64,000 nucleotides of DNA from Leucobacter chromiireducens (GTDB lineage Bacteria > Actinomycetota > Actinomycetes > Actinomycetales > Microbacteriaceae): assembly GCF_003917135.1 (NCBI RefSeq), contig NZ_RPDI01000016.1, positions 1 through 64,000 on the forward strand, in the 5' to 3' direction. The notes beneath the pieces are model-generated. The model saw only the letters and a list, made by a program, of their open reading frames with translations. It had not been told where the DNA came from and did no database searches. This document shows, one piece after another, positions 6,492 to 22,081 of the stretch. Position 1 is the first letter of the stretch; every line of letters begins with the position of its first letter. The position numbers and the translations under genes were made by a program.

Positions 6492-6500
6492 CGTGGAGGC

Positions 6501-7730
6501 ATGATGACACCAGGTGGCCCCTTCAAGACCCCGCCGCCGCGACGGCTCCCCGCGTCGCCCGTCGGCCCGCAGCTCGCAGCCTCGGCGCGCTCGCACATCC
6601 CCGCCTTCGAGGTCATGCAGATCACCGACGAGGTCGCGCGCCGCCGCGCGGCCGGACACGACATCGTCTCGCTCTGCGCCGGCGAGCCCAGCGCGCGCCC
6701 CGCGCCCGGCACGCTCAAGCCGGCCGGCTACACGGGTCCGCTCGGCACCACACCGCTCCGCGAGGCGATCGCCGGCCACTACCGGTCCTGGTACAGCGTT
6801 GACGTCGATCCCGGCTCGGTCGCCGTGACCACCGGCTCGTCCGGGGCCTTCCAACTGGTATTCCTCGCGGCGTTCGATCCGGGCGACCGCGTCGCGCTCG
6901 CGAGCCCCGGGTACCCCGCCTACCGCAACATCCTCACCGCCCTCGGCGTCCAGGTGATCGAGATCCCCACCGGGCCGGACACGCGCTACCAGCCCACCCC
7001 CGAACTGCTCGCGGCCGCAGCCGCGGAGCACGGCGCGCTCGCCGGGCTCGTGCTCGCCTCGCCGGCCAACCCGACCGGTACGATGCTCGGACGCAGCGCG
7101 CTCACCGGCCTCGTCGACTGGTGCGTTGCGAACAGCGTGCGCATCATCAGCGACGAGATCTACCACGGCATCACGTTCCCCGAGGCGGGCGATCCCGATC
7201 CGCGCGGTGTGACGCTGCGCGAGCTCGACCCGGAGTCGGTGGTGATCAACTCGTTCTCGAAGTACTGGGGGATGACCGGCTGGCGGCTGGGCTGGGCGGT
7301 GCTGCCGCAGACGCTCATCGGTCCCGTCGAGGCGCTCGCCTCCAACTTCGCGCTGTCGCCACCCGCGCCAGCGCAGGAGCTCGCGCTCACCGCGTTCACC
7401 GCGGAGAGCTACGCGGAGCGCGACGCGATCGTCGCCGGCTTCGCGCGTGCGCGCGCCCTCATCCTCGACGCGGCCCCCGCGCTGAACTGGGGCGCAGCCG
7501 CGCCGTCGGACGGCGCGTTCTACTACTACTCCGAGCTCGGGCCGCAGCTCGAGCGCTTCGCGGACTCGTCAGCATACGCCCGCGCGCTCCTCGAACGCGG
7601 CGACGTCGCTGTGGTGCCAGGCACCGACTTCGACCCGGTCGCCGGGCACCGCGCCGTCCGCCTCTCATACGCGGCGGGGGAGAGCGCGGTCGCCGAGGCG
7701 CTCGATCGGATCCTCCGCTTCCAGGCGTAG
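6501..7730 (+). CDS. PLP-dependent class I/II aminotransferase
   Basis: 409 aa, fold-type I aminotransferase of the aspartate aminotransferase family, cytoplasmic. Visible marks are the substrate-site SLCAGEPSA near the N terminus, the PLP-phosphate region TTGSSGAFQ, ASPANPTGTM, DEIYHGI and the Schiff-base lysine K254 in NSFSKYWGMTGWRLGW. The amino donor and acceptor cannot be told from sequence. Two adjacent ATGs (6501 and 6504) compete. TAACGT at 6489-6494, overlapping the previous stop codon, lies six bases before the first ATG and suggests a leaderless message starting there; GGAGG at 6495-6499 would instead favour the second ATG on a read-through transcript. A convergent hairpin follows the gene. 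Confidence 0.9.
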   Translation: MMTPGGPFKTPPPRRLPASPVGPQLAASARSHIPAFEVMQITDEVARRRAAGHDIVSLCAGEPSARPAPGTLKPAGYTGPLGTTPLREAIAGHYRSWYSVDVDPGSVAVTTGSSGAFQLVFLAAFDPGDRVALASPGYPAYRNILTALGVQVIEIPTGPDTRYQPTPELLAAAAAEHGALAGLVLASPANPTGTMLGRSALTGLVDWCVANSVRIISDEIYHGITFPEAGDPDPRGVTLRELDPESVVINSFSKYWGMTGWRLGWAVLPQTLIGPVEALASNFALSPPAPAQELALTAFTAESYAERDAIVAGFARARALILDAAPALNWGAAAPSDGAFYYYSELGPQLERFADSSAYARALLERGDVAVVPGTDFDPVAGHRAVRLSYAAGESAVAEALDRILRFQA

Positions 7731-7732
7731 CG

Positions 7733-7764
7733 CGTCGGCGGGTGCGGACGCACCCACCGACGCG
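7733..7764. terminator. Hairpin terminator between convergent genes
   Basis: Inverted repeat with outer stem CGTCGG/CCGACG and inner stem GGGTGC/GCACCC around a GGAC loop, with one C/A mismatch. It lies in the 72-base gap between the rightward aminotransferase and the leftward hyuB-like gene and could stop both transcripts. There is no T-run, as is common in high-GC actinobacteria. Confidence 0.6.
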
Positions 7765-7802
7765 CACTGCGCGCCCAGGCCGGACTGCGCGCCCCGGCCC
7801 GG

Positions 7803-9473
7803 CTACTCGCCCGGCTCGAGCCGCCCCGCGCGCGCGTCCCACGCGCGCAGCTCGCCGCTCCGAGCCGCCGGATCGCCGTAGCCACCGCCGCCAGCGGTCT
7901 CCACGCGGACGACCGCGCCTGCGGGCAGCACCCTGGACGTCTTCATCGGGTGATCGACGACCGCGCCGTCGGGGTCGAAGACGGTGATGCGCGTCGGGGC
8001 GGCCGCCTCGCCTCCGGCGGCGCCAGCCGGCGCGAACCGGGCGTCAGTCTGCTCCGCGTAGAAGGTGGCGTGCTGCGGGTGGTCGAGGATCTCGTACTCG
8101 CGCACGAGCCCCAGGCCGCCGTTGTACTCGCCGCGTCCCTGCGATCCCGGTCGAAACTCGGTGCGCCGCACGCGGATGCGGTAGTTCGTCTCGACGACCT
8201 CGGTCGGCATCACCCCGACGTTCGACATATAGGTGTCCACGCCGTCGATGCCGTCGCCCGTCGGTGTGGCGCCCGTCCCGCCGCCCACCACGTCGGCCAT
8301 CACCGAGGCGCGGCCGGTGCGCGGGTGCGTCGATCCGACGTTGAAGCTGAAGAAGGAGACCGTGCTCGACGCGACGGCGCGATCCGGCCAGATCGCCTGC
8401 ATCGCGCGAATCAGGGTGTCGGCCAGGCGCTGACACGAGTTGTGCCTGATCGACACTGCGGCGGGCGGCAGCGGATTCACGACGCTGCCCTGCGGCGCGG
8501 TGATGTCGAGCGTGCGCAGCAGACCATCGTTCGAGCTGAGCCCCGGCGCGATCACGCACCGCACCGCGTAGACGAGGCCAGCGCGCGCGCTCGCCCACGG
8601 GATATTCATCGCCCCGGCCGTCTGCGGGTCGCAGCCGGAGAGATCGATGTGGAGCCGGCCGCCACGCTTCTCGATGCGCGCGTGGATGCGGGTCGGGTCG
8701 CCGCCGCGGCCGTCGTCGTCGAGCGAGCCCTCGGCTTCGCCGACCCCATCGGGGAGCTGCTCGAGCAGTCGGGTGACCGCGGTCTCGACGGTGTCGAGCA
8801 TGCGCTCCATCACGGTGAGGAGCACGTCGCGTCCGTACAGTGCGATGAGCTCGTGCACCCGCTCCTCGCCGAGTCTGCATGAGGCGCGCTGCGCGCGGAG
8901 ATCGCTGAGCGTCGAGAGCGGGTCGCGGAAGTTCTCGGACATCACCGCGACGAGGTCCTCGTTCTCCACGCCCGCGATGGACAGGCGAACGGGCGGGAAC
9001 ACGACGCCCTCGCCGAACAGCTCGGTGAGCTCCGGGCCCTCGCTGCCGGGGTTCACGCCCCCGACGTCGATGTGGTGCGCCGCGGTGCCCGCCCAGGCAA
9101 TGAGCGCGCCGTCGTGGAAGACGGGGATCACGATGTTGACGTCGGGCAGGTGCATGGCGCCCTGGTAGGGGTGGTTGCAGATGTACGCGTCGTGCTCCTG
9201 GATCCGCCCGTCCCAGCGGGCGAGGATCGACTTCACGACGAGCGACATCGCGCCGAGCTGCGCTGGGATGTAGTCGGCCTGGGCGACGAGCTCGCCGCTC
9301 GCGGAGAAGATCGCGCAGGAGAAGTCGTCCATGTCGCGGATGATGGGGCTGTAGCTGGAGCGCTTCAGAACGCTGCCCATCTCCTCGGCCGCGGACTGCA
9401 GCGCGGCAGCGGCAACCTCGAACGTGACCGCGTCGAGCGCGATCGTCTCAGGGGTGGTGCTGGTGGGGGTCAT
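7803..9473 (-). CDS. hyuB: HyuB-type hydantoinase/oxoprolinase/carboxylase beta subunit
   Basis: 556 aa, hydantoinase B family (N-methylhydantoinase beta, 5-oxoprolinase C-half, acetone/acetophenone carboxylase subunits). It works as a complex with the HyuA-type protein, which uses ATP to activate the substrate. Typical stretches are KRSSYSPIIRDMDDFSCAIF near the N terminus, ADYIPAQLGAM, NHPYQGAMHLPD and GGGGYGDP at the C terminus. Its ATG (9473-9471) overlaps the hyuA stop in an ATGA junction, so the two are translationally coupled and the start is firm; a longer open frame upstream is only read-through. Whether it hydrolyses a cyclic amide or carboxylates a ketone cannot be decided from sequence. 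Confidence 0.9.
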   Translation of the reverse strand: MTPTSTTPETIALDAVTFEVAAAALQSAAEEMGSVLKRSSYSPIIRDMDDFSCAIFSASGELVAQADYIPAQLGAMSLVVKSILARWDGRIQEHDAYICNHPYQGAMHLPDVNIVIPVFHDGALIAWAGTAAHHIDVGGVNPGSEGPELTELFGEGVVFPPVRLSIAGVENEDLVAVMSENFRDPLSTLSDLRAQRASCRLGEERVHELIALYGRDVLLTVMERMLDTVETAVTRLLEQLPDGVGEAEGSLDDDGRGGDPTRIHARIEKRGGRLHIDLSGCDPQTAGAMNIPWASARAGLVYAVRCVIAPGLSSNDGLLRTLDITAPQGSVVNPLPPAAVSIRHNSCQRLADTLIRAMQAIWPDRAVASSTVSFFSFNVGSTHPRTGRASVMADVVGGGTGATPTGDGIDGVDTYMSNVGVMPTEVVETNYRIRVRRTEFRPGSQGRGEYNGGLGLVREYEILDHPQHATFYAEQTDARFAPAGAAGGEAAAPTRITVFDPDGAVVDHPMKTSRVLPAGAVVRVETAGGGGYGDPAARSGELRAWDARAGRLEPGE

Positions 9474-11533
9474 CGTGACTCCTGCTTTCCTGGTTCCGTG
9501 ACAACGATGTCGAGCGTGCTGGTGACCGCGCAGTGCTGGCCGGGCAGGATCACCGAGGTGGCGTCCATCTGCTGCACGATGGCGGGGCCGGTGAACTCGG
9601 TGCCCGGGGTGAGCCGCGCGCGATCGAGGATGGGGGTGGAGACCGAGCCGAAGCCGGGGAGGAGGACGTCGCGCACGCCGAGCACGGCGGCCTCGTCGAG
9701 CGGCTGCGCCGCGATGGGCACCGCGCGTTGCCGGTCCCGGCTCACCTCGCCGGTCGAGGTGAGCCGCACCGTAACGATCTCCACCGGCTCGGCCGAGTTG
9801 GCGTGGCCGTAGCGTTCCGCGTGCGCCGCGTGGAAGCGGCTCGGCAGCTCCGCGAGGGTCGCTGCGCTCCAGTCGGGGATCGGGATGTTGAGCTCGAAGC
9901 CCTGCCCGCGGTAGCGGCAATCGACCGACGCCTCGGTGCGTACCGCGTCGGCGGCGATCCCATCGCGTGCGAGCTGCGCGGCGGACTCCGCTGCGGTCGC
10001 GGCGAACCAGGCGCTCAGCTCGGCCTCGGCGTCGGCGTCCGCGTCGCGGAGCACCGTCTGCGAGCGGTCGATCTTCAACCCGGCGACGAGCAGCCCATCG
10101 GCGGAGAACAGGCCGGGCCGCAGCGGGATGATAACGTTCTTGAGCGCCATGTGGTGGAGGAGCATGCCGGCGTGGAGCGGGCCGGCGCCGCCGAAGGGGA
10201 CGAGGCTGAACTCGCGCGAGTCGAGCCCGCGCTCCACGCTCACCTTGCGCACCGCGCGGATCATGTGCGCGAGGCCGATCGCGAGGATCGCCTCAGCGCC
10301 CTCCTCAGGGGTCATGCCGAGGGGCTCGGCGATGCGACGCACGGCCTGCACCGCCAGCTCGCGGTCGATGACGAGGCCGCCGGCGAGCTCACCGGCACCG
10401 AGCGTGCCGAGCACCACGTGCGCGTCGCTGATCGTGGGCTCGACGCCGCCGCGGCCGTAGCACGCCGGCCCGGGCACCGCCTTCGCGGAGAGCGGACCCA
10501 CCTTGAGGCTGCCGGTCTGATCGAGCCAGGCGATGCTGCCGCCGCCCGCGCCGATCGTGTGGATGTCCACGGTGGGGGCGAGGAGCGTGTGGTCCTGGAT
10601 CTCCTGCACGGTGGTGAACGGGATGGTCGCGTCGCGGAGCAGGCAGACGTCGGTGGAGGTGCCGCCCATGTCGAGGCTGATGAGGTTCGGCTCCGCGAGC
10701 GACTCGGCGAGGGCGGCGAGCCCGGCAACGCCGCCAGCCGGCCCGGAGAGCACGAGGCGGTGGGCGTCCTGGCCGGCGCGCGCCGCAGGGACGCTGCCGC
10801 CGTTGGACTGCATGACGAGCAGCGGGGAGCTCACGCCGGCGGCCGCGAGCGCCGCGCTCGCCCGGTTCAGATAGTCCTCGACGAGGGGGCGCAGTGCCGC
10901 GTTGATCGCGGTGGTCGCGGTTCGCGGGTACTCGCGGAACTCGCGCGCGACCTCGGAGGAGAGGGTCACCGGCCGGTCGGGGAACGCGGCGCGCAGCGCC
11001 TCGCCGACGCGTCGCTCGTGCGCGTCGTTCAGGTAGCTGAACAGGAACGAGACCGCGATCGCCTCGGGCTCGGCCGCACGGATCCGCTCGATCAGTGCGG
11101 CGAGCTCCGACTCGTCGACAGGGGTGAGGACCTCGCCGGCGGAATCGAGGCGTTCGGTCACCTCGAAGCGGAGCTCCCGCGGCACCAGTTCGGCTGGGCG
11201 CTCCGGGGTCAGGCTGTACACCTCCGGGCGGTTCTGCTGGCGGTAGCCGAGCACGTCTCGGAATCCCGCGGTGGTGACGAGCGCGGCGCGGCCGAGCGCG
11301 CCCGTCAGGGTGGCGTTCGTCGCGACGGTGGTGCCGTGGCAGACGAGCGCGGTGCGGTCGAGCGGCACGCCGAGCGCGGCGAGCGCGGTCGCGGCGTTCT
11401 GGAGCCCGCGCGACGGGTCATCGGGGGTGGAGGCAACCTTTGCCTCGCGCACCTCGCCGTCTGCGCGGCGCGCGATCGCGTCGGTAAACGTGCCGCCCGC
11501 GTCGATGCTGAGCGTCCACTGGAGCGTGTTCAT
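9470..11533 (-). CDS. hyuA: HyuA-type ATP-dependent hydantoinase/carboxylase alpha subunit
   Basis: 687 aa, hydantoinase A/oxoprolinase family with an actin-like ATP-binding fold. Motifs visible: SIDAGGTFTD at residues 9-18 (phosphate-binding loop), CHGTTVATNATL, SLDMGGTSTDVCL in the second half-domain, and AVPGPACYGRGG. The C-terminal third carries YRGQGFELNIPIP. With hyuB it would form an ATP-dependent cyclic amidohydrolase or a ketone carboxylase. The ATG at 11533 has GAGGAA five bases upstream. Its promoter shares the gap with the divergent SDR operon, where two copies of the proposed palindromic operator lie, one centred about 88 bases upstream of this start. Substrate unknown. Confidence 0.9.
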   Translation of the reverse strand: MNTLQWTLSIDAGGTFTDAIARRADGEVREAKVASTPDDPSRGLQNAATALAALGVPLDRTALVCHGTTVATNATLTGALGRAALVTTAGFRDVLGYRQQNRPEVYSLTPERPAELVPRELRFEVTERLDSAGEVLTPVDESELAALIERIRAAEPEAIAVSFLFSYLNDAHERRVGEALRAAFPDRPVTLSSEVAREFREYPRTATTAINAALRPLVEDYLNRASAALAAAGVSSPLLVMQSNGGSVPAARAGQDAHRLVLSGPAGGVAGLAALAESLAEPNLISLDMGGTSTDVCLLRDATIPFTTVQEIQDHTLLAPTVDIHTIGAGGGSIAWLDQTGSLKVGPLSAKAVPGPACYGRGGVEPTISDAHVVLGTLGAGELAGGLVIDRELAVQAVRRIAEPLGMTPEEGAEAILAIGLAHMIRAVRKVSVERGLDSREFSLVPFGGAGPLHAGMLLHHMALKNVIIPLRPGLFSADGLLVAGLKIDRSQTVLRDADADAEAELSAWFAATAAESAAQLARDGIAADAVRTEASVDCRYRGQGFELNIPIPDWSAATLAELPSRFHAAHAERYGHANSAEPVEIVTVRLTSTGEVSRDRQRAVPIAAQPLDEAAVLGVRDVLLPGFGSVSTPILDRARLTPGTEFTGPAIVQQMDATSVILPGQHCAVTSTLDIVVTEPGKQESR

Positions 11534-11612
11534 CGGGATTCCTCACTGAATGCGGTGGCCGGGCGGGATCACCCGGGTGCCACCATTGTGCGAACTCCCG
11601 CGCGGGCCGGGC

Positions 11613-11630
11613 ATGCGTCATTCGACGGAT
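11613..11630. promoter_or_regulatory. Proposed operator site 1 (imperfect palindrome)
   Basis: ATGCGTCATTCGACGGAT, two half-sites related to GTCA/TGAC around a TT centre. It matches site 2 at 16 of 18 positions. It lies in the divergent gap between hyuA and the SDR operon, closer to hyuA. Its centre is 44 bases from that of site 2, close to four helical turns, so both sites would face the same side of the DNA. Confidence 0.6.
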
Positions 11631-11656
11631 GGGGAGTCGCCGTGCGGCGCGGGGTG

Positions 11657-11674
11657 ATCCGTCATTTGACGGAT
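11657..11674. promoter_or_regulatory. Proposed operator site 2 (perfect palindrome)
   Basis: ATCCGTCATTTGACGGAT: perfect 8-base arms (ATCCGTCA and TGACGGAT) around a TT centre. It is 58 bases upstream of the SDR start at 11732. Dyad symmetry of this size fits a dimeric LuxR-type DNA-binding domain, and such a regulator is encoded 1.7 kb downstream. Confidence 0.65.
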
Positions 11675-11731
11675 GAGCGCCGAGCGGATGCCCGAGAGAG
11701 TGAGGGGACACGCACGAGCGAAGGAGCCGCG

Positions 11732-12568
11732 ATGCCCGACACCGATTCCGCACCGCACCTGGAACGGCAGGCGGCCGGGACACCAGCACCGCACGGGCAC
11801 CACACCGCGCCCGTCGCGCTCGTGACCGGGGCGGCCTCGGGGATCGGGCTCGCGACCGCGCGGCGCCTCCTCGCCGACGGCTTCGACCTCGGGGTGTGCG
11901 ACCTCTCGCCGGCGCTCACGTCGGAGTTCGCGGCCGAGCTCGCAGCCGGGCGGGTGGTCGCCGTCGTGGGCGATACGACGGATGCCGCCGCGCGATCCGA
12001 GCTGCTCGCCCAGATCGCAGCCCGGTTCGGGCGGCTTGACGTGCTCGTCAACAACGCGGCGACGGGCGGGGAGTCCGCGGAGGTGGAGCGGCTCAGCCTC
12101 GCCGGGCTGCGCCGCACGCTGGAGATCAACGTCGTCGCGGTCGTCGCGCTCGTCCAGGAGTGCATCCCGCTCCTGCGTGCGGCGCCAGCCGGCAGGGTGA
12201 TCACGCTCGGCTCGCTCTTCGGCGATGAGCCGGTGATCGGGGGAGCGCCGTACTGCGTGAGCAAGGGCGCGATCCACACGCTCACGCGCGTGCTCACGCT
12301 CGAGCTGGGCCTGGACGGCATCGCGTGCAACACGGTCGCGCCCGGCTACATCCTCACCCCGATGCACGCCGAGGAGGTGGAGTTTCAGGCGGCAGCGCGC
12401 GGAATCACCGCCGCCGAGCGCTACGCCGAGCTGCGCGCAGAGGTGCCCGTTGGCCGGCACGGCACCCCGGACGACGTCGCGGCAGCGGTGGCCTGGCTGG
12501 CGAGCGAGGAGAGCGGGTATGTCTCCGGGCAGAAGCTCTCCGTGAGCGGCGGGGTGACGTTCGCATGA
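11732..12568 (+). CDS. SDR-family oxidoreductase (canonical)
   Basis: 278 aa, classical short-chain dehydrogenase/reductase. After a hydrophilic 25-residue N-terminal extension come the cofactor motif TGAASGIG, NNAATGG in the NAG position, the catalytic Ser in ITLGSLFG and the YCVSK active-site pair. It probably oxidises an alcohol or reduces a carbonyl with NAD(P); the substrate is unknown. GAAGGAG precedes the ATG at 11732. It opens an operon that continues with a degenerate SDR (ATGA overlap), the LuxR-PBP regulator and the ABC importer, and proposed operator sites 1 and 2 lie just upstream. Confidence 0.88.
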   Translation: MPDTDSAPHLERQAAGTPAPHGHHTAPVALVTGAASGIGLATARRLLADGFDLGVCDLSPALTSEFAAELAAGRVVAVVGDTTDAAARSELLAQIAARFGRLDVLVNNAATGGESAEVERLSLAGLRRTLEINVVAVVALVQECIPLLRAAPAGRVITLGSLFGDEPVIGGAPYCVSKGAIHTLTRVLTLELGLDGIACNTVAPGYILTPMHAEEVEFQAAARGITAAERYAELRAEVPVGRHGTPDDVAAAVAWLASEESGYVSGQKLSVSGGVTFA

Positions 12569-13296
12569 CCGAGTGCCAGGACTCGCCGGGCCTCGTCATC
12601 GCCGGGGCGGCCGACGCCGTCGTGACGGCGCTCGTTGCGCTCGCGGTGGAGCGCGGCTGGCGCGTCGCGTACCTCGGCCACGCGGCGGAGCCGGAGCTCG
12701 CCGCGCTCGGCGCGCAGTGCCACGTGCTCCCACCGGGGGATCCCGACGGGGTGGAGTCGGTGCTGTCGCAGCTCAGCTCGCAGTGGCGGCGCGCGCCCGA
12801 CGCCCTCGTCTACGCCACGCAGATCGACCACGCCGTCGCCGCGGTCACCGAGTCCGTCGCCGGCTGGCGTGAGGTGCAGCGCCAGCTGGGCGCCGCGTTC
12901 CTCTTCGCGCAGGCCGGGGTGCGCGAGATGCTGCGGCTCCGCGGCGGCGCGCCGGTGGACGACGGTGCCGTGCTGTTTCTCGGTGACGCCTCGGCCAGCC
13001 GGGGGATCGCGGGGCTGCCGCGCGTCTCGCCCGGCGCCGCGGCGGCCGGACTCGCGGGAATGACCAGGCAGCTCGCGGTGGAGTGGGGCCCGTACGGCGT
13101 GCGCGTGAACCTCCTGCGCGTCGGGCACGTCGCCGGCGACGGCCAGCCGCCAGCGAGCGTGACGCAGCGCCTCCCGCTCGGCCGCGCCGGCACGCCCGAG
13201 GAGATCGCGGCGGCTTGCTACTATCTGATCAGCAGGTCCTCCTCATACATTACGGGCGTCGCGCTCGCAGCAGATGGCGGGTTCCTCGCCACCTGA
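12565..13296 (+). CDS. SDR-like protein lacking catalytic residues
   Basis: 243 aa with the overall SDR layout: a Rossmann-like start (LVIAGAADAVVTALVALAVERGW), the VEWGPYGVRVNLLRVGHV segment that follows the active site in SDRs, and the C-terminal LPLGRAGTPEEIAAAC and ITGVALAADGGFL. But the glycine motif TGxxxGxG is replaced by AGAADAVV, the NNAG position reads YATQI, and the YxxxK region reads VSPGAAAAG, so both the catalytic Tyr and Lys are missing. It therefore is probably not an active dehydrogenase and may be a partner or ligand-binding subunit of the preceding SDR, with which it overlaps by an ATGA junction. Role inferred from context only. Confidence 0.8.
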   Translation: MTECQDSPGLVIAGAADAVVTALVALAVERGWRVAYLGHAAEPELAALGAQCHVLPPGDPDGVESVLSQLSSQWRRAPDALVYATQIDHAVAAVTESVAGWREVQRQLGAAFLFAQAGVREMLRLRGGAPVDDGAVLFLGDASASRGIAGLPRVSPGAAAAGLAGMTRQLAVEWGPYGVRVNLLRVGHVAGDGQPPASVTQRLPLGRAGTPEEIAAACYYLISRSSSYITGVALAADGGFLAT

Positions 13297-13333: not shown

Positions 13334-15085
13334 ATGTCAGAGTGGGCAGTCGAGCGCACCATCACGGCGGACACGCCGGAGGCGATCCTGCCGGTGCAGG
13401 TGCCGCACGAGATCTGGGGGTACGCAAAGGCGTTCCTCCTGATCGGTCGCCCCGCGCTGCGCTTTCTGTGGCGATCGGAGGAGCACTGGCTCGACGTGCA
13501 GCTCGCGCGCGAGAGCACGCTCGGCTCGCCGCAGCCCGCGCCCGACCGCGTGAACGTGCGCATCGAGCAGGTGGAGATGCCGCGCGGGATCACGGTGCGC
13601 GAGCTCGACGTGCTGACGCTGCTCGCGCTCGGGCTCACGAACATCGGGGTTGCGGAGCGGCTGGGCACCTCGGCGCGCACCGTGTCGAGTCAGCTCGAAC
13701 GCCTGCTCGAGAAGCTCGGGCAGAGCACGCGCGGCGGGCTTGCCGCGCTCGCCGTCGACCTTGGACTGCTCAGGCTGCCGCTGCCTGGCGGGGTACCGGA
13801 TGGCGGCGGCACCGGGATCGGGGTCGCGGAACTGGAGCGCGCCGTGCAGCACCGGCTCGACCGCGGCTACCTCCCGATCCGCGAGCACGTGCTCACCCGG
13901 ATCCCGATCCGCCTCGGCATCGTGGTGCCGAATCACTCGCCGTCGGACAGTGAGCAGACGCTCAACGGGGCGCTGCTCGCGGTCGAGGAGATCAACCAGC
14001 AAGGCGGGATCGGCGGTCGCCAGATCGAGCCGATCACCGAGGTGGTGAGCACCTTCGACTGGGGCGACGTGCGCGCGGCGCTGCACCGGCTCTTCGACGC
14101 CGACGTCGACGCGATCATCTCGAGCTACGTGAGCGCCGAGCACCCCGGGTTCATGGAGGAGATCGCGGCGTACGGGAAGCCGTTCCTGCACACGGCCACC
14201 TTCGAGGCCGACGTGAAGCGCGCCGAGCAGGCGCCGTGGAAGTACGGCATGATCTTCCAGACCTGCGCCTCGGAGACGTACTACGGCGCCGGCATGCTCC
14301 GGCTGCTCGACAAGTTGGAGCGCGCGGAGCGCTGGCGCCCGGCCAGCCGCACGGTCGTGCCGATCGAGATGCCCTCGGAGAGCATGAACGTCGCGTCGCC
14401 GGCGTTTCGGGAGCAGGCGGAGGCCGCGGGCTGGCGGGTCACCGATGCGGTGTACTCGCCCGTCGGCGAGACCGACTGGGACGCCGTGATGCGCGGGATC
14501 GCTGCGCACGATCCCGACGTGATCCTCATCGCCAACTACATCGACAGCGAGCTCATCGCCTTCCACGAGGCGTTCCTGCGGAGCGGGCTCCGCGCGCTCG
14601 TCTACGGGATCTACTCGCCGTCGAACCCGAGCTTCGTCCACGAGCTCGGCGAACGGGCGAACGGCGTGATCTGGTCGACCACCACGGGCACCTACGACGA
14701 CGAGCTCGGCGGGAGGTTCCGTGCGCAGTACCGCGCGAAGTTCCGCCACGACCCAGGCTGGTCGATCGCGGGCGCCGTCTACGATCAGGTGCGCATGCTC
14801 GCCGCGGCGTGGTCCTCGGTCGACGCGCGCAACACCACCGACGTGGTGCGCTACCTCAGGCGGTGGCCGTATCGCGGGGTCAACGGGGTCTACTACTTCG
14901 GGGAGACGGGGCAGGCGCCGAAGCTGTACCCCGACACCACGCCAGACGCGGCGCTCAGCCAGGCGCACCAGGTGTACCAGATCCTCGGCGGCACGCACGT
15001 GCTGCTCGATCCGCAGCCGTTTGGCGACATCGCCGCGTTCGAGCTGCCGACGTGGAGCACTCCGGGGCCAGAATCCGTCAAATGA
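13334..15085 (+). CDS. One-component regulator: LuxR helix-turn-helix fused to a LivJ-like ligand-binding domain
   Basis: 583 aa, no signal peptide or membrane helix, so cytoplasmic. Residues 1-80 form an unrecognised N-terminal region; residues about 84-150 are a LuxR/GerE DNA-binding domain (TVRELDVLTLLALGLTNIGV, then TSARTVSSQLERLLEKLGQ); residues about 193-575 are a type I periplasmic-binding-protein fold of the branched-chain amino acid class (IRLGIVVPNHS, AVEEINQQGGIGGRQIE, ANGVIWSTTTGTYDDELG, YRGVNGVYYF). The ligand domain is collinear with the SBP encoded next, with matching stretches throughout. The likely job is to bind the imported substrate in the cytoplasm and control this locus. 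The ATG at 13334 is preferred over one at 13274, which would overlap the previous gene. Its stop codon lies inside proposed operator site 3. Confidence 0.85.
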   Translation: MSEWAVERTITADTPEAILPVQVPHEIWGYAKAFLLIGRPALRFLWRSEEHWLDVQLARESTLGSPQPAPDRVNVRIEQVEMPRGITVRELDVLTLLALGLTNIGVAERLGTSARTVSSQLERLLEKLGQSTRGGLAALAVDLGLLRLPLPGGVPDGGGTGIGVAELERAVQHRLDRGYLPIREHVLTRIPIRLGIVVPNHSPSDSEQTLNGALLAVEEINQQGGIGGRQIEPITEVVSTFDWGDVRAALHRLFDADVDAIISSYVSAEHPGFMEEIAAYGKPFLHTATFEADVKRAEQAPWKYGMIFQTCASETYYGAGMLRLLDKLERAERWRPASRTVVPIEMPSESMNVASPAFREQAEAAGWRVTDAVYSPVGETDWDAVMRGIAAHDPDVILIANYIDSELIAFHEAFLRSGLRALVYGIYSPSNPSFVHELGERANGVIWSTTTGTYDDELGGRFRAQYRAKFRHDPGWSIAGAVYDQVRMLAAAWSSVDARNTTDVVRYLRRWPYRGVNGVYYFGETGQAPKLYPDTTPDAALSQAHQVYQILGGTHVLLDPQPFGDIAAFELPTWSTPGPESVK

Positions 15086-15090
15086 CGCAT
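15073..15090. promoter_or_regulatory. Proposed operator site 3
   Basis: ATCCGTCAAATGACGCAT, the reverse orientation of the same palindrome (ATGCGTCATTTGACGGAT on the minus strand). It covers the regulator stop codon (TGA at 15083-15085). A TACCGT box at 15113-15118 is a candidate -10 for the SBP gene; if transcription starts about seven bases later, the site is centred near -43, the usual place for LuxR-type activators. Confidence 0.6.
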
Positions 15091-15189
15091 GCTCCTGGTG
15101 CAGCGCCTCGCCTACCGTGAGGTGCTGAGACACCCCGGCGACCACACGCAGATCCTGCTGAGCCGGCGGCCCATCACAAAGGAGTGGTT

Positions 15190-16518
15190 ATGAGTGACAC
15201 GCAAGCGAGCCCGCCGACCCCGCGCAAGCGGGTCACGCGTCGCGACCTCGTGCGAGGGATCGGCATCGCGGGCGCCGTCGGCCTCCTCGGCGGCGGGGCT
15301 GGGGGATACTTCCTCTCGCCGCGTCGCGCGGGCGGCAGCGCGGCGGCCGGTGGCGGTGAGACGATCAAGTTCGGGATCGTCGCCCCCGTGACCGGCCCCT
15401 ACTCGGGTGACGGGCAGGAGATGGTGCGCGGCGCCGAGCTTGCCGTCGAGGACATCAACGCGGCTGGCGGGGTGCTCGGGCGCCAGGTCGAGCTCGTGGT
15501 CGGAGACATCGCGGATCAGGCCCCGGAGAACTTCATCCAGGTGGCCGAGCGACTGGTGTCGCGCGAGGGAGTCGCCGCCGCCTCCGGCGGGTACACGACC
15601 GCGACGTCGGTGGAGTTCAACACGTACGCGCAGGCCGGGGTTCCCCTGTTCCACACGAACACGCTGCAGGCCAACACCGACTACGTCGTCGAGCACGGCA
15701 TCACGAACATCTTCCAGTGCTGCCCAACCGAGCCGTGGTACGCGAGCGGGTTCCTGCAGCTGATGCAGGGCTGGATCGATGACGGCACCTGGGTGCCCTC
15801 CTCGAAGACCGCCGCCATCATCTCGAGCAACGACTCCTACTCGCTGTCGATCGCGTCGGTGGTGCAGCAGGGGCTGCGCGAACTCGGCTGGGAGATCACG
15901 CTCACCGAGGAGGTGTCGGTGCCCTACGCCGACTGGGGTCCGCAGCTCTCGAAGATCCGCAACAACCCGCCAGGGCTCATCTTCGTGACCGACTACCTCG
16001 CCGGCGACCTCGCGAGCTTCGCGAAGCAGTTCGCCACCTCGCCAACGCCGTCGCTGCTCTACCAGCAGTACGGCCCGAGCGTGCCCGAGTACCTCGACCT
16101 CGCGGGCGACGCGGCGAACGGCGTGATCTGGTCGACGACGATCGGCACGCTCCCGGACGACATCGGACTCGCGTTCCGCGAGCGCTACCTGAAGACCTAC
16201 GGCACCGAGGCCGGGCTCAGCCAGTCGGGCGCGCAGTACGACATCGTGCGGCTGTGGGCGCAGGCTGCCTCGCGCGCCGGCGACCCGTACGACTCGGAGG
16301 CGGTGTCCGCTGCGGTCTCGGCGCTCACGTTCCGCGGGGTGGTCGGCACGTACCGCTTCGACCCGAACGACCACACCGCGATCCCGTACCCCGACGCGAC
16401 CGACGACCCGAGCCTCGGCATGCCGCACCTGACCTACCAGATCCAGGACGGAGAACAGGTGCTGTTCTCCCCGGCCCCCTACGGCAAGGGTGACTTCCAA
16501 CTGCCGAAGTGGCTGTGA
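15190..16518 (+). CDS. Branched-chain-type ABC transporter substrate-binding protein, Tat-exported
   Basis: 442 aa. The N terminus has a twin-arginine signal: TRRDLVRGIGIAGAVG with RR at residues 17-18, followed by a hydrophobic stretch. I see no lipobox cysteine, so it is either released or held by the uncleaved helix. The mature part is a type I periplasmic-binding protein of the LivJ/Peripla_BP_6 class (KFGIVAPVTGPYSGDGQEM, AVEDINAAGGVLGRQVE, ANGVIWSTTIGTLPDDIG). It captures the substrate for the permease and ATPases encoded downstream. It shares extended collinear similarity with the ligand domain of the preceding regulator. AAAGGAG lies just before the ATG at 15190; a GTG at 15184 is less well placed. 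The bound compound need not be an amino acid. Confidence 0.9.
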   Translation: MSDTQASPPTPRKRVTRRDLVRGIGIAGAVGLLGGGAGGYFLSPRRAGGSAAAGGGETIKFGIVAPVTGPYSGDGQEMVRGAELAVEDINAAGGVLGRQVELVVGDIADQAPENFIQVAERLVSREGVAAASGGYTTATSVEFNTYAQAGVPLFHTNTLQANTDYVVEHGITNIFQCCPTEPWYASGFLQLMQGWIDDGTWVPSSKTAAIISSNDSYSLSIASVVQQGLRELGWEITLTEEVSVPYADWGPQLSKIRNNPPGLIFVTDYLAGDLASFAKQFATSPTPSLLYQQYGPSVPEYLDLAGDAANGVIWSTTIGTLPDDIGLAFRERYLKTYGTEAGLSQSGAQYDIVRLWAQAASRAGDPYDSEAVSAAVSALTFRGVVGTYRFDPNDHTAIPYPDATDDPSLGMPHLTYQIQDGEQVLFSPAPYGKGDFQLPKWL

Positions 16519-17336
16519 GCGAGACGATGAGCGCGAACGCAGCCGAGATCCAGCTCGAGGTGCGCGCAGCGACGAAACGCTACGGCGGGCTGACCGCGGT
16601 GGACGGCGTGAGCTTCGAGGTGCGCCGCGGCGAGATCTTCGGCATCGCCGGGCCGAACGGTGCGGGAAAGACCACGCTCTTCGACCTCGTCACCGGGATG
16701 GTGCGCGCAACGAGCGGCGAGGTGCGCTTCGAGGGCGAGCCGATTCACCGCTCCTCGATCCACGAGATCTGCCACCGCGGCATCACGCGCACCTTCCAGA
16801 AGCCCTCCGTGTTCGACAGCGAGACGGTGATGGGCAACGCGGTCGTCGGCGCGCACTTCGGCGCAGGCACCCCGTGGTGGAAGAGCCTCCGCCGCGACCC
16901 CGAGGTCTGGGATCGCGCGCAGGCGGCACTCGAGTTCGTTGGTCTCGCCGAGCGCGCCGATGAGCTCTCCGGCCCGCTTCCGGTGTACGACAAGAAGCGG
17001 CTCATGATCGCCTCTGCGCTCGCCAGCTCGCCCAGCATGCTCTTCCTCGACGAGCCGTTCGGCGGGCTCACCGACGAGGAGATCGAGGCGCTGCTCGTGC
17101 TCCTCGAGCGCATCAACGAGTCGGGGATCACGATCGTGCTCATCGAGCACGTGATGCGGGCGCTCATGGCGCTCGCCGATCGCGTGCTCATCATGGACCA
17201 GGGGCGCACGCTGCGGCAGGGCGAACCCGGCGAGGTGATGAGCGACCCAGAGGTGGTGCGCGTCTATCTCGGCTCCTCGGCCGAGGAGGCCGCGAGTACC
17301 GCGGCGATCCGCGTCGCGCGAAAGGAGGAACGCTGA
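16515..17336 (+). CDS. LivG-like ABC transporter ATPase
   Basis: 273 aa, ATP-binding subunit of a branched-chain-type ABC importer. Walker A is GPNGAGKTT, Walker B FLDEPFGG, switch histidine in IEHVMRAL. The signature region is unusual: where the family normally has LSYGEQRRLEIA-like sequence this protein reads LPVYDKKRLMIASAL, lacking the Ser-Gly pair of the ABC signature, whereas the partner ATPase has a normal LSGGE. The start is uncertain: GTG at 16515 overlaps the SBP stop (GTGA), ATG at 16527 is the alternative, and GTG at 16509 is also in frame. It would pair with the next gene as a heterodimer. Confidence 0.87.
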   Translation: MSETMSANAAEIQLEVRAATKRYGGLTAVDGVSFEVRRGEIFGIAGPNGAGKTTLFDLVTGMVRATSGEVRFEGEPIHRSSIHEICHRGITRTFQKPSVFDSETVMGNAVVGAHFGAGTPWWKSLRRDPEVWDRAQAALEFVGLAERADELSGPLPVYDKKRLMIASALASSPSMLFLDEPFGGLTDEEIEALLVLLERINESGITIVLIEHVMRALMALADRVLIMDQGRTLRQGEPGEVMSDPEVVRVYLGSSAEEAASTAAIRVARKEER

Positions 17337-18046
17337 TGTTGGACGTCACAGACGTGGTGGCCGGGTACGGCTCATCCGCCGTGGTCCAGGGGATCACGCT
17401 GCGGGTCGAGGCGGGGAGCTGCGCGGCGCTTGTCGGCCCGAACGGCCACGGCAAGACCACGCTGCTCCGCGCGATCAGCGGGCTCGTGCGCGTGCGCTCG
17501 GGCACGGTGCGCTTCGACGGCGCGGACATTACCCGCGAGCAGGCCGAGAAGATCGTGGAGCGCGGGCTCATCCAGATGCCGCAGGGCGACCTCGTGTTCC
17601 CGGACATGACCGTTGAGGAGAACCTCACGCTCGGCGCCTTCACCCGCGCGGCGGCGAAGGGCGCGGCGGCCCGCATGGACGAGGTGTACGACATCTTCCC
17701 GCGACTGCTCGAGCGGCGCGCGCAGCGCGCACGCACCCTCTCCGGCGGCGAGCGGCGCATGCTCGCGATCGGCCGCGGGCTCATGGGCAAGGCGAAGATG
17801 ATCATGATCGACGAGCCGAGCCTCGGCCTCGCACCCGTGATCGTCGACGAGGTCTACCACCAGATCCGCCGCGTCGTCGAGTCGGGGATGACGGTGCTGC
17901 TCGTGGAGGAGAACCTCACACGCGCGCGCAGCCTCGCCACCGAGATCCACCTCGTGGAGAACGGGGTCATCGTGCGATCCGGATCAGGCGATGAGGTGCT
18001 CGACGAGCGCAGCATCCGCGAAACCTACCTGGGGGTGACCGAATGA
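17336..18046 (+). CDS. LivF-like ABC transporter ATPase
   Basis: 236 aa, second ATP-binding subunit of the importer. Walker A GPNGHGKTT, canonical signature LSGGERRMLAIGRGL, Walker B MIDEPSLGLAP and the switch region VLLVEENLTRA are all present. The ATG at 17336 shares a base with the stop of the previous gene (TGATG) and has AAAGGAGG eight bases upstream, a very strong ribosome site. The length is normal for LivF. It supplies the intact catalytic signature that the LivG-like partner lacks. Confidence 0.93.
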   Translation: MLDVTDVVAGYGSSAVVQGITLRVEAGSCAALVGPNGHGKTTLLRAISGLVRVRSGTVRFDGADITREQAEKIVERGLIQMPQGDLVFPDMTVEENLTLGAFTRAAAKGAAARMDEVYDIFPRLLERRAQRARTLSGGERRMLAIGRGLMGKAKMIMIDEPSLGLAPVIVDEVYHQIRRVVESGMTVLLVEENLTRARSLATEIHLVENGVIVRSGSGDEVLDERSIRETYLGVTE

Positions 18047-18930
18047 ACCTCATCCTGCAGACCCTCGTCAGCGCGATCGTGCAGGGGTCGATGCTGGCCC
18101 TCATCACGATCGGCATGAGCCTCGTGTACGGCACACTCCGCGTGCTCAACATGGCGCAGGGCGTGATGGTGATGGTGGGCGGCGTCGCCGCGTGGACGCT
18201 CGTCACCGGCACCGGCGCCTCACCGTGGCTCGGCATGCTCTTCGCCGTGCTCGTCACGTTTGCGCTCGGCATGCTCGCGTACGGGGTGGGCATCAGCCGG
18301 CTCATCGGCCGGGCGGGCGTCGACTTCGAGATGACGGCGTTCATCTCCACCTTCGCGATCGCGTCGATCGTGCAGAGCGTGGTGCAGCTCATCTACGGGC
18401 CGCGCCAGAAGGACTTCCCGGCACTCGTGCCCGGGCGCATCGAGCTCACCGACGGCGTTTCGATCACCTGGCAGCAGGTGCTCACCGCGGGGATCGCGAT
18501 CGTCACGCTGCTCGCGCTCGGCTGGTTCCTCAGCAGATCGCGGTACGGTCTCGCGATCGTTGCTGTTGCGCAGAACCTCGACGCCGCACGGCTGATGGGG
18601 ATTCCTGCGCGCCGGGCGTACGTCCTCGCGATGGGCCTCGCGGCCGGTCTCGCTGGCCTCGCCGGGGTGCTGCTCGCGCCCGTGTACTTCGTGTCGCCGA
18701 CGATGGGGGAGCTCCCCATGCTGCAGGCGCTCATCGTCGCGATCTTCGCCGGGCTCGGGAGCACGCGCGGCACGATCATCGCGGCATACATCATTGGCTT
18801 CGTGCTCGCGGCGGTCTCCATCTTCTGGAGCTCGACGTACGCGATGCCCGTCCTCTACGCGCTCATCGTCGTCGTGCTGATCGTGCGACCGTTCGGGATC
18901 GCGGGGAAGCCGCAGGAGGCAAGGCTATGA
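18043..18930 (+). CDS. LivH-like ABC transporter permease
   Basis: 295 aa, integral membrane permease with about eight hydrophobic segments, of the branched-chain/urea-type ABC importer family. Characteristic stretches include GMSLVYGTLRVLNMAQG near the N terminus, RSRYGLAIVAVAQN before the coupling region and GLGSTRGTIIAAYIIGF. It forms the channel together with the LivM-like permease. The ATG at 18043 overlaps the preceding stop (ATGA). Confidence 0.92.
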   Translation: MNLILQTLVSAIVQGSMLALITIGMSLVYGTLRVLNMAQGVMVMVGGVAAWTLVTGTGASPWLGMLFAVLVTFALGMLAYGVGISRLIGRAGVDFEMTAFISTFAIASIVQSVVQLIYGPRQKDFPALVPGRIELTDGVSITWQQVLTAGIAIVTLLALGWFLSRSRYGLAIVAVAQNLDAARLMGIPARRAYVLAMGLAAGLAGLAGVLLAPVYFVSPTMGELPMLQALIVAIFAGLGSTRGTIIAAYIIGFVLAAVSIFWSSTYAMPVLYALIVVVLIVRPFGIAGKPQEARL

Positions 18931-20066
18931 CGCACCACACCACACGTACCGGTCCGCTGCGCTCCGGCGCGGCGGTCGTCGGGGTCGCAACGGCCCACAG
19001 CGGCTCGCCCGTGCTCGCGCGGTGGGACGCGAAGGCGATGGGGTGGCCGCGACCGCGGCCGCTGCTCATCGTGATCGCGCTGCTGATCGGCGCGGTGTTC
19101 CCGGTCATCGCCCCCGACCGGAGCTGGCTGAGCGTCGCAACCCTCGCGATGATCACGCTCACGCTCGCCCAGAGCTGGAATCTCGTGCTCGGCTACGGCG
19201 GTGTCTGGAACTTCGGGCAGCTCGCGTTCTACGCGCTCGGCGCGTACTCTGCGGCGCTCGTGACGATCTATCTGCCCGTTCCGGTGTGGCTCTCGATCCC
19301 GATCGCCGGGGTGGTCTCCGGCGGGATCGCGCTGCTCCTGTCGATCCCGATCCTGCGGTTGCGCGGCATCTACGTGTCACTCCTGACCTTCGGATTCGCC
19401 GAGGTGGTTCGCCTCCTCATCGTCGCCGATCAGTCGGGCGTGACGGGCGGCAGCTACGGGCTCTCCGGCTTTCCCGGCTTCGGGTTCACCGGACCGGGGG
19501 CGCTGAGCCTCAACTACTGGATCGGCTTCGCCGCCGCGGTCGTGACGACCCTCATCGTGTTCGTGCTGGTGCGCTCGCCGCTCGGCAACGGAATGATCGC
19601 GATGCGCGACAACCCGGCGCTCGCGTCGGCGCGCGGCGTGGGGCAGCAGACGTACCAGATGCTCGTCTTCGCGATCTCCGGATTCCTCGCCGGGGTCGCC
19701 GGGGCGCTCTACGCGCACGTGTTCGCTGTCGCGTCGCCGACCCTCATGGGGCTCAGCCCGATGACGCTCATCGTCACGATGCTCGTCGTCGGCGGGCTCG
19801 GCACGGTGACCGGCCCGATCATCGGCACGCTCCTGCTCTCGTTTGTGCAGATGCAGCTGCAGGATCTCCCGGAGATCCGGCTCGCGGCGCTCGGCGTCGT
19901 GCTGCTCGTCGTGATCCTCACGATGCCGCGCGGGCTCCTGCCGTTCTTCAGCGCGCAGTGGGCGAAGCTCGAGGCCTGGATGGCGGAGGACGACGAGGAC
20001 GACGAGGACGCGCCCGACGCCGCGGGTGCCGCGGGTGCCGCGGGCGCGGCCGGCGCTACGAGATGA
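18927..20066 (+). CDS. LivM-like ABC transporter permease with acidic tail
   Basis: 379 aa, second membrane permease. After a 45-residue hydrophilic N terminus come about nine membrane helices, with the family stretches SWNLVLGYGGVWNFGQLAFY, LRLRGIYVSLLTFGFAEVVR and RDNPALASARGV. The C terminus carries an unusual low-complexity tail: an acidic run EDDEDDEDAPD followed by three Ala-Ala-Gly repeats and ATR. The ATG at 18927 overlaps the previous stop (ATGA). The last 11 bases overlap the 3' end of the convergent SDR gene, so the two stop codons sit inside each other's reading regions. Confidence 0.92.
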   Translation: MTHHTTRTGPLRSGAAVVGVATAHSGSPVLARWDAKAMGWPRPRPLLIVIALLIGAVFPVIAPDRSWLSVATLAMITLTLAQSWNLVLGYGGVWNFGQLAFYALGAYSAALVTIYLPVPVWLSIPIAGVVSGGIALLLSIPILRLRGIYVSLLTFGFAEVVRLLIVADQSGVTGGSYGLSGFPGFGFTGPGALSLNYWIGFAAAVVTTLIVFVLVRSPLGNGMIAMRDNPALASARGVGQQTYQMLVFAISGFLAGVAGALYAHVFAVASPTLMGLSPMTLIVTMLVVGGLGTVTGPIIGTLLLSFVQMQLQDLPEIRLAALGVVLLVVILTMPRGLLPFFSAQWAKLEAWMAEDDEDDEDAPDAAGAAGAAGAAGATR

Positions 20067-20784
20067 GGTAGCCGCCGTCGACGTGCAGCGTCGTTCCGGT
20101 GATGTACGCGGCCGAGCCGCTCGCCAGGAACAGGCACGCAGCTGCAACGTCGGCGGCGGTGCCGAGCCGTCGCGCAGGGAGGCGATCCGTCAGCGCGGTC
20201 ACCGCCGCCGGATCGTCGCCGAGCGTCAGCATGGGGGTATCGATCATCCCGGGGGCCACCGCGTTCACCCGGATCCCCGCCGGACCGAGCTCTGCGGCGA
20301 GCTGCTGGGTGAGGCTCACCACGGCGCCCTTGCTCGCCGAGTAGGCGGCGCCCGGCTCGAGCTCGTCGCCGCGTGCGTACGCGACGGAGGAGAGCAGCAC
20401 CATGGCCCCGGCCGGAATCGCGGCGGCCGCGGCGCGCGCGACGATGAACGCGCCGGTCGCGTTGATCCGCAGCACCCGATCCCACTCGTCGACCGTGGTC
20501 TCCGCGAGCGGCGCCCAGCGGTAGATGCCCGCGCAGTGGACCAGGGCGTCCGGGGCGCCGCCGAGCGCGGCAGCCGCGCCGCGGAGCGCGGCGTCGACGG
20601 CGGCGGGATCGGTGACGTCAACGGTGCGGGCGGTGAGGCCGGCTGCGGCCCACTGCGCGTCGCCGCGGTCGAGGCTGAGCACGCGCCCGCCGCTCGCGAG
20701 GACGCCCTCGGCGACGGCGCGGCCGATGCCGGACATCGCGCCGGTGACGATGACTCGGCGCGGAAGTGTTGCGGTGAGATCCAT
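20056..20784 (-). CDS. SDR-family oxidoreductase (second canonical copy)
   Basis: 242 aa classical short-chain dehydrogenase: cofactor loop TGAMSGIG, HCAGIY, catalytic Ser in LLSSVAYA, YSASK active site, and C-terminal ITGTTLHVDGGYL. It probably belongs to the same catabolic route as the SDR at 11732. The ATG at 20784 has AGGGGGC upstream, while an upstream in-frame start at 20856 would run through repeat-rich leader DNA. A weaker copy of the locus palindrome (20879-20896) lies about 95 bases upstream. The gene converges on and overlaps the LivM-like gene by 11 bases. Confidence 0.87.
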   Translation of the reverse strand: MDLTATLPRRVIVTGAMSGIGRAVAEGVLASGGRVLSLDRGDAQWAAAGLTARTVDVTDPAAVDAALRGAAAALGGAPDALVHCAGIYRWAPLAETTVDEWDRVLRINATGAFIVARAAAAAIPAGAMVLLSSVAYARGDELEPGAAYSASKGAVVSLTQQLAAELGPAGIRVNAVAPGMIDTPMLTLGDDPAAVTALTDRLPARRLGTAADVAAACLFLASGSAAYITGTTLHVDGGYLIS

Positions 20785-20804
20785 GCTGCCCCCTGGGGTG
20801 TGTT

Positions 20805-20846
20805 GCGTGCGCTGTGTGCACTGTGTGCACGGCGAAACTGCGTGCA
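20805..20846. repeat. Short GTGCA-containing direct repeats in SDR leader
   Basis: Two perfect abutting 9-base copies of CTGTGTGCA (20812-20820 and 20821-20829), flanked by related units GCGTGCG near 20805 and GCGTGCA at 20840-20846. They lie between the SDR start and its proposed upstream operator. A protein-binding array is possible; function unknown. Confidence 0.5.
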
Positions 20847-20878
20847 CTGCGATCACACCAGACTCGACGGCGCGGCGC

Positions 20879-20965: not shown

Positions 20966-22081
20966 CTACGCGCCGTACTCGATGACGGAGCGGATACCGC
21001 GCCCCTTGCGCATCTCGGCGAACGCCTCGTTCACCTCGCCGAGCTGGATCCGGTCGGTGACCATCGAGTCGAGGTCGATCAGGCCAGCCATATAGAGATC
21101 GATGATCTTCGGGAAATCGATGGACTGCCTGCTGGAACCGTAGTTCGAGCCGATCAGGCGCTTCTCCTGGTCGCTCATGACGAAGGGGTCGATGGAGACC
21201 TTCACGCCGTCGGCGACCTGGCCGACCACGACCGCGGTGCCCCCGCGCCGGATCGCCTCGTAGCAGGCCTCGATCGTGAAGGGGAGCCCGATCGCTTCGA
21301 ACGCGTAGTCGACGCCGCGGCCGCCCGTGAGCTCCCGCACCGTGTCGAGCAGGTCAACCTCCCGGCTGTTGATCGTGTGGGTTGCGCCGAACGTGCGCCC
21401 GAGCTCCAGCTTGTCGGCACTGACGTCGGCGACAATGATCTGCTTCGCGCCGGCGAGCCGCGCGCCCTGCACCACGTTGAGGCCGACGCCGCCGCAGCCC
21501 ACGACGAGCACGGTGCTGCCTGGCTCAACGCCAGCGGTGTTCGTCACCGCCCCGATCCCGGTCGTGACGGCGCAGCCAACGAGTGCGGCCTGCGCGAGCG
21601 GGGCGTCCTTCCTGATCCGGATCGCTGCGGAGGCCGGCACCATCGCGTACTCACCGAATGAGCCGACCGCGAGGAAGCTCTTCACCTCCTGCTCGCCGTC
21701 GTGGAGGCGCGGTCGCCCGTCGAAGAACACGTGCTGGTACGCGGTCTCGTTGGCGAGCTGGCAGAGCACCGGCCGGCCGGACACGCAGAACTCGCACTTC
21801 TGGCAGGAGGGCGTCCAGGACAGAATGACGTGATCGCCGACCGACAACTCCGTGACCTCGGAGCCGACGGCCTGCACGACACCGGCACCCTCGTGGCCGA
21901 GCACGAGCGGCGCCGGGGTGTCCCAGTCGCCGTCCAGCGCGTGGAGGTCGCTGTGGCACACCCCGGACGCGGCGAGTTTCACGAGGACCTCCTGCGGTCC
22001 CGGCTCGCTCGAAATGGTGAGCTCGCGGAGTTCGAGTGGCTGGTTCGGGCCGACAAACACGGCCGCGTTCATGGTGATCAT
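20966..22081 (-). CDS. Zinc-dependent alcohol dehydrogenase (MDR family)
   Basis: 371 aa, medium-chain Zn alcohol dehydrogenase, NAD(P)-dependent, cytoplasmic. Catalytic zinc ligands are in GVCHSD and GHEGAG; the structural zinc loop is CQKCEFCVSGRPVLC; the Rossmann motif is VVGCGGVGLNVVQGA, and DVSADKLE after strand 2 suggests NAD preference. It resembles class III/AdhC-like enzymes that act on alcohols or aldehydes, including thiol adducts; the substrate is undefined here. The ATG at 22081 has AAAGGA eight bases upstream. It is the last gene of a leftward set APC permease, unknown protein, ADH. Confidence 0.92.
   Translation of the reverse strand: MITMNAAVFVGPNQPLELRELTISSEPGPQEVLVKLAASGVCHSDLHALDGDWDTPAPLVLGHEGAGVVQAVGSEVTELSVGDHVILSWTPSCQKCEFCVSGRPVLCQLANETAYQHVFFDGRPRLHDGEQEVKSFLAVGSFGEYAMVPASAAIRIRKDAPLAQAALVGCAVTTGIGAVTNTAGVEPGSTVLVVGCGGVGLNVVQGARLAGAKQIIVADVSADKLELGRTFGATHTINSREVDLLDTVRELTGGRGVDYAFEAIGLPFTIEACYEAIRRGGTAVVVGQVADGVKVSIDPFVMSDQEKRLIGSNYGSSRQSIDFPKIIDLYMAGLIDLDSMVTDRIQLGEVNEAFAEMRKGRGIRSVIEYGA

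Follow-up and report, generated by a model that had tools for sequence, protein, structure and literature searches.

The gene at 13334..15085 of the window (the whole stretch of 64,000 nucleotides of Leucobacter chromiireducens DNA that was analyzed) encodes a fusion protein in which a LuxR-type helix-turn-helix (HTH) is followed by a type I binding-protein domain. Quite probably, this protein is a cytoplasmic one-component activator, which senses a catabolic substrate and switches on the adjacent transporter and hydrolase genes. In the proposed mechanism, the C-terminal type I binding-protein domain would sense a small molecule that is imported or produced by the neighboring catabolic system, and the LuxR-type HTH would bind, presumably as a dimer, to the palindrome ATSCGTCA-NN-TGACGSAT. 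When bound approximately 42 bp upstream of each start, the fusion would recruit RNA polymerase to three target units, i.e., hyuAB, SDR-SDR-regulator and SBP-liv; since its own gene lies behind SDR1-SDR2, the regulator would also activate itself. Binding of the palindrome by the fusion, activation rather than repression, and gating by a ligand are all points that we infer, and the candidate operator, its spacing and the targets are derived entirely from comparative sequence analysis. The features concerned are the following:

7806..11533, minus strand: hyuB/hyuA-like pair; nearest NCBIfam models are those of caprolactamase beta and alpha, with scores well short of the cut-off
11612..11631, no strand: candidate operator 1, upstream of the hyuA-like gene
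11656..11675, no strand: candidate operator 2, upstream of SDR1-SDR2-regulator
11732..13296, plus strand: SDR1-SDR2, a collinear pair preceding the regulator gene, assigned by BLAST clustering alone
13334..15085, plus strand: fusion regulator gene, single open frame, 583 aa
13334..13582, plus strand: N-terminal domain, residues 1-83, predicted beta-alpha-beta-beta-beta
13592..13744, plus strand: GerE/LuxR HTH, residues 87-137 (Pfam PF00196, 37.0 bits vs. a cut-off of 23.5)
13904..15064, plus strand: type I binding-protein domain, residues 191-577 (Pfam PF13458 and Foldseek)
15072..15091, no strand: candidate operator 3, which overlaps the regulator stop codon and precedes the SBP/ABC operon
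15113..15118, plus strand: TACCGT, predicted -10 hexamer for the SBP operon; distance to the center of operator 3, 31 nt
15190..16518, plus strand: substrate-binding protein (SBP) with a twin-arginine-like start, paralog of the regulator's sensor (34% identity)
16515..20066, plus strand: branched-chain-type (Liv) ABC transporter, two ATPases and two permeases, by domain matches

Domain architecture of the fusion

Orthologs favor the start codon at 13334, and an alternative in-frame ATG at 13274 is possible. An earlier note on this DNA had proposed a LuxR HTH and a LivJ-like domain in one chain; both were indeed detected above their Pfam cut-offs within one open frame, with the match to Peripla_BP_6 (PF13458) covering residues 191-528 (106.3 bits vs. 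a cut-off of 31.7). The one-component layout and the extra N-terminal region that it had described were likewise found, with HTH and sensor sharing a single chain of 583 residues and residues 1-83 preceding the HTH. The structure prediction for which it had called yielded a confident AlphaFold model of the fusion (mean pLDDT 89.9, pTM 0.73), and the best Foldseek match of the sensor was 3h5l, a putative branched-chain amino acid binding protein (E 8.8e-28). Hydropathy in 19-residue windows reached its maximum of 1.47 at residue 136 and was at most 0.93 within residues 1-70; therefore, and upon inspection of the N-terminus by eye, no signal peptide, lipid anchor or membrane segment was seen, in line with the lack of an export signal claimed previously.

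The HTH of LuxR/GerE proteins is usually C-terminal. In the fusion, by contrast, it occupies residues 87-137 of 583 and is followed by about 430 residues with the binding-protein domain. The features shared with LuxR/NarL proteins, PAS-LuxR proteins included, are the GerE HTH, a palindrome near -42 and a possible reduced PAS domain in front; neither a receiver domain, as in NarL-type response regulators, nor an autoinducer-binding domain, as in quorum-sensing LuxR proteins, gave a Pfam match in the fusion up to E 1. LacI/GalR proteins also carry an HTH and a type I binding-protein sensor in a single chain, but their HTH is N-terminal and they usually repress, whereas the fusion combines its internal GerE HTH with Peripla_BP_6 and an activator-like site position, and showed no Pfam match to a LacI-type HTH. 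The suggestion in the earlier note of a LacI-like layout made from "unrelated parts" is thus half right: the HTH does belong to another family, but the sensor of LacI has a type I binding-protein fold as well, so that the HTH family alone differs.

A further comparison concerns AmiC of Pseudomonas aeruginosa, a cytoplasmic type I binding-protein receptor that regulates the genes of amide catabolism by way of a distinct protein, the RNA-binding antiterminator AmiR. The AmiC structure (1qnl) ranked 42nd among the Foldseek matches of the sensor (E 3.0e-14). Both systems would have a cytoplasmic type I binding-protein receptor with control over amide catabolism; the difference is that the fusion sensor carries its own LuxR-type HTH, with a DNA palindrome as the likely target. 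SBPs of the LivJ/UrtA type, with 3h5l as the nearest solved structure, share domain family and fold with the sensor of the fusion, but they are exported transporter parts without an HTH.

Candidate operator and promoter spacing

Relatives of the fusion were gathered by scanning a collection with two peptide patterns; 80 stretches matched, and 55 of these were relatives by tblastn, in a scan that was not exhaustive and in which some loci are near-copies of one another. When the intergenic DNA of the Leucobacter loci was aligned, one palindrome appeared at three places, and we propose it as a new candidate operator with a consensus near ATSCGTCA-NN-TGACGSAT. In the window, CGTCAWWYGACG was found at three places (5 strand matches vs. 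0.09 expected), two of which fit the stricter ATNCGTCANNTGACGNAT. A search of the whole 3.2-Mb genome for CATSCGTCAWWYGACGSAT with up to two mismatches returned three exact sites, all at this locus, and one other place with two mismatches on contig 34, which we took for chance, with differing half-sites and a location among unannotated genes. One gene near the latter resembles a response regulator by eye.

Perfect CGTCANNTGACG sites numbered 24 in total and were located in 21 of the 55 loci. They occurred in 21/23 loci of the near group (1.2 expected by shuffling) and in 0/32 of the others (1.5 expected), the near group having been drawn after the hits were known, with L069, which the tree places with it on a long branch and which has no site, counted among the others. 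The two exceptions within the near group were L045, with no site, and L055, with a one-mismatch site only. Some distant members showed CGTCRNNYGACG instead, with eight sites in 6/32 loci of a filtered listing and 26 loci without an entry; four of the eight were perfect, and in all four the -10 hexamer was spaced as in the near group. The genes behind these sites included SDR and eutB-like ones. Another motif that looked enriched in the distant group, TCGACC-N4-GGTCGA, was dropped because all its perfect copies fall inside genes, six of eight in an SDR stretch. The earlier assumption that the HTH binds DNA gains support, by comparison only, from the conserved candidate operator.

We also monitored the distance between the palindrome and -10-like hexamers. 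TANNNT was present 30-31 nt from the palindrome center, on either side, at 15/36 perfect intergenic and 0/13 perfect in-gene sites, at 5/58 intergenic and 0/254 in-gene one-mismatch sites, and at 123/11000 random intergenic positions; these intergenic counts are slightly too high, because intergenic status was taken from our own gene calling, in which genes of some loci were overlooked (in L028, the site at 9475 lies inside the regulator). In a set of 44 hand-chosen site-direction pairs towards core genes, TANNNT started at 30 or 31 nt in 16, out of 21 such hexamers within 8-100 nt (the row for the extra site of genome G021 is off by one base). Among the window sites, a correctly spaced TANNNT is confined to the SBP promoter, with CACAAT at hyuA and no clear hexamer at SDR1. 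Based on the 30-31 nt spacing, the palindrome center is predicted to lie near -42/-43 from the start; LuxR-type activators bind near -42.

These positions bear on whether the fusion might instead be a ligand-relieved repressor or dual regulator that acts, LacI-like, at the same palindromes, a reading that we regard as unlikely. A repressor, too, could bind a palindrome and carry a type I binding-protein sensor, and LacI-type proteins mostly repress, but the palindrome center lies some 42-43 bp upstream of the predicted start, the position of LuxR-type activators, rather than over it, and a -10-like hexamer at fixed spacing accompanies part of the sites.

Sensor domain, N-terminal domain and likely ligand

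The SBP encoded behind the regulator has an N-terminus that resembles, by eye, a twin-arginine leader, and its relationship to the sensor was analyzed across the family. At 41 columns, conservation reached at least 90% in both regulators and adjacent SBPs; the residue was the same at 37 of them and differed at four (F434, Y454, W493 and A544). In a Mantel test with 15 loci, distances between regulators correlated with those between SBPs (r 0.91, p 0.0001), which is consistent with joint inheritance and led us to reject a fresh copying of each sensor from the neighboring SBP. In a tree of sensor domains and SBPs (L068 relabeled from SBP to regulator; short rows L040 and L078 left out), the adjacent SBPs formed one clade, and the regulators did so in 28% of bootstrap trees.

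Within residues 1-85, Pfam gave no match up to E 1, PAS included. Modeled alone, the N-terminal 86 residues reached a pLDDT of 86.2, and PAS domains made up over half of the 50 Foldseek matches listed. A reduced PAS fold is perhaps present, and we treat it as a lead only, because none of the 50 matches was below E 0.001 and the top two lack a PAS label, with the best PAS entry at rank 3 (E 0.026). Such a domain might suggest that the sensor domain no longer binds a ligand and docks to the transporter or just holds the dimer together, while the N-terminal domain does the sensing. Its presence across the family and its faint likeness to PAS would agree with this. We nevertheless hold this arrangement to be rather improbable, since the 37 of 41 conserved columns identical between sensors and adjacent SBPs argue against it, as does the far lower conservation of the N-terminal domain, whose mean column identity is 24% compared to 43% for the whole protein, the latter from the family alignment of 47/55 loci (leaving out L028, L030, L040, L044, L054, L068, L078 and L079).

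With the binding-protein domain as the presumed sensor, its ligand was sought among the genes shared by the 55 loci, counted in fetched flanks of up to 8 kb. A PuuE-like (CE4, polysaccharide-deacetylase-type) hydrolase was near 47/55 loci, the background being one match in this 3.2-Mb genome. Counts for the other hydrolases were 22/55 for C45/AAT, 16 for the hyuA/hyuB pair, 13 for nitrilase-type and 12 for penicillin amidase, and an amide hydrolase from at least one of these four families was near 50/55. In the window, the hyuA/hyuB-like pair runs divergently, upstream of the fusion gene. Transporters near the regulator were of the Liv type in 16/55 loci and of the Rbs type in 21/55, with both together in none; the two types substitute for each other around one regulator family.

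PuuE itself acts as an allantoinase, with a small cyclic imide as its substrate (PMC3084791). Because of this activity and the amide-hydrolase and PuuE-like neighbors, we guess, with about an even chance of being right, that the ligand is a cyclic imide, lactam or amide. EutB-like genes, near 9/55 loci, may point to amino alcohols instead. The fold matches of the sensor include pyroglutamate-bound 8wch (rank 14) along with amino-acid, aromatic-acid and urea binders. The name of the Paenarthrobacter strain hinted at iprodione, a lead that was abandoned after nothing came of it among the literature matches listed.

Somewhat short of even confidence, we propose that a new family arose when a transporter binding protein was duplicated, retained inside the cytoplasm and joined to the C-terminal side of a LuxR-type HTH. 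It would form with the SBP an outside/inside receptor pair for one substrate, as the fixed part of a catabolic module in which hydrolases (CapAB-like, C45, nitrilase, penicillin amidase) and transporters (Liv or Rbs) are exchanged, also on plasmids. A sensor related to the receptor of the adjacent transporter would aid the identification of substrates in poorly known amide, lactam and imide pathways, for which it could also act as a biosensor, and the predicted operator and targets are precise enough for a direct test.

Several observations concern other genes. In orthologous Leucobacter loci, PuuE-like and C45/AAT genes lie beside hyuAB, and in this genome they are on another contig (L101, contig 17:34000-42546, at 6012-7984); the scan found no site near them, and by eye only, a stretch faintly resembling a half-site was noted in front of them. 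The contig end, in the last 1.4 kb of L101, shows a block repeated around an N, which looks like an assembly join artefact. The gene pair at 11732..13296 falls into the same BLAST cluster as the SDR at 20056-20856. Past the operon, on the opposite strand, 20969-22081 encodes a zinc-type alcohol dehydrogenase, nearest to the NDMA-dependent and mycothiol/glutathione-formaldehyde types with scores below cut-offs.

Distribution of the fusion and of the site

Both domains were in one open frame in 53/55 fetched loci, the exceptions being L068, without both domains in one frame, and L079, cut by a contig end; the genera named in the locus titles include Leucobacter, Mycolicibacterium, Rhodococcus, Nocardioides, Streptomyces and Pseudonocardia. 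In a survey of 37 genomes of the genus, our own included, 12 had the fusion, as an ortholog of at least 63% identity in seven and as a divergent form (35-37% identity) spanning both domains in five; two further genomes had a piece of the sensor only. The fusion is rare across the phylum: an even sample gave a match at E 1e-30 or better in 4/296 genomes. Plasmid records with a match numbered 39, and two of these, from Paenarthrobacter and from a record labeled Agrobacterium tumefaciens, cover at least 80% of the query. Hence, the idea that the fusion had escaped description because it is unique is not supported.

The stricter ATNCGTCANNTGACGNAT was present in 7/60 relatives, the same seven with a homolog of at least 63% identity, and in 4/296 phylum genomes, the same four that hold the fusion; in both samples it was found in exactly those genomes with a fusion at least 41% identical. 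A backward control pattern occurred in 0/60 and 2/296 genomes, respectively. The five genus genomes with only the divergent fusion (35-37% identity) lacked ATNCGTCANNTGACGNAT. Of the four phylum genomes with the site, our own had yielded the motif and two (G066 and G130) carry loci already in the set (L042 and L046), while G151 was new, with sites upstream of a PuuE-like gene, an SBP and a hyuA-like gene. This co-occurrence is not independent of shared descent, because the site travels with the locus. A block inherited in this way could explain the match even if some other regulator, with its gene outside the locus, used the palindromes and the fusion, whose binding to them is presumed, had another role. 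We consider that quite improbable, given that site and fusion are found in the same genomes in both samples and that no other DNA-binding family was seen among the annotated recurrent gene clusters, with single genes mostly unannotated. For the fusion as the regulator that acts at the palindrome, one possible distant target was noted: in G021, a perfect candidate operator (L102, near 6814), on a contig other than that of the regulator, precedes a pair of histone-deacetylase-type genes together with an Rbs-type SBP and an amidase.

With regard to previous reports, a census of 991 actinobacterial LuxR proteins from 53 species lists, in the part available, receiver, AAA, HD, FHA, kinase, TPR, PAS, cyclase and cold-shock partner domains and no binding-protein domain; as it comprises specific CD-Search hits, it could miss such a domain or include no carrier species (PMC3466318). 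A term search for such a fusion in the accessible text of a survey of LuxR homologs in Gram-positives gave no match (PMC5539150). Titles and abstract openings of the open-licence literature matches listed contained no report of a GerE HTH fused to a binding protein, and one elsewhere is possible. With this family, the LuxR-type HTH joins the DNA-binding parts known to be fused to binding-protein sensors.

Both plasmid copies are annotated publicly as "ABC transporter substrate-binding protein", so the annotated plasmid members of the family carry transport-protein labels. This would suit an exported SBP with a chance HTH match, a notion already contradicted and hardly credible in view of a GerE score that exceeds the cut-off, the invariance of HTH residues in an alignment of 48 members and the lack of a visible leader. 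No site was found by the scan at the Agrobacterium copy; the Paenarthrobacter plasmid has one between a nitrilase-like gene and the regulator. Both plasmid loci (L083 and L084) carry a polysaccharide-deacetylase gene and a nitrilase-type gene, and that of Paenarthrobacter additionally encodes two further enzymes, a primary-amine oxidase plus an aldehyde dehydrogenase.
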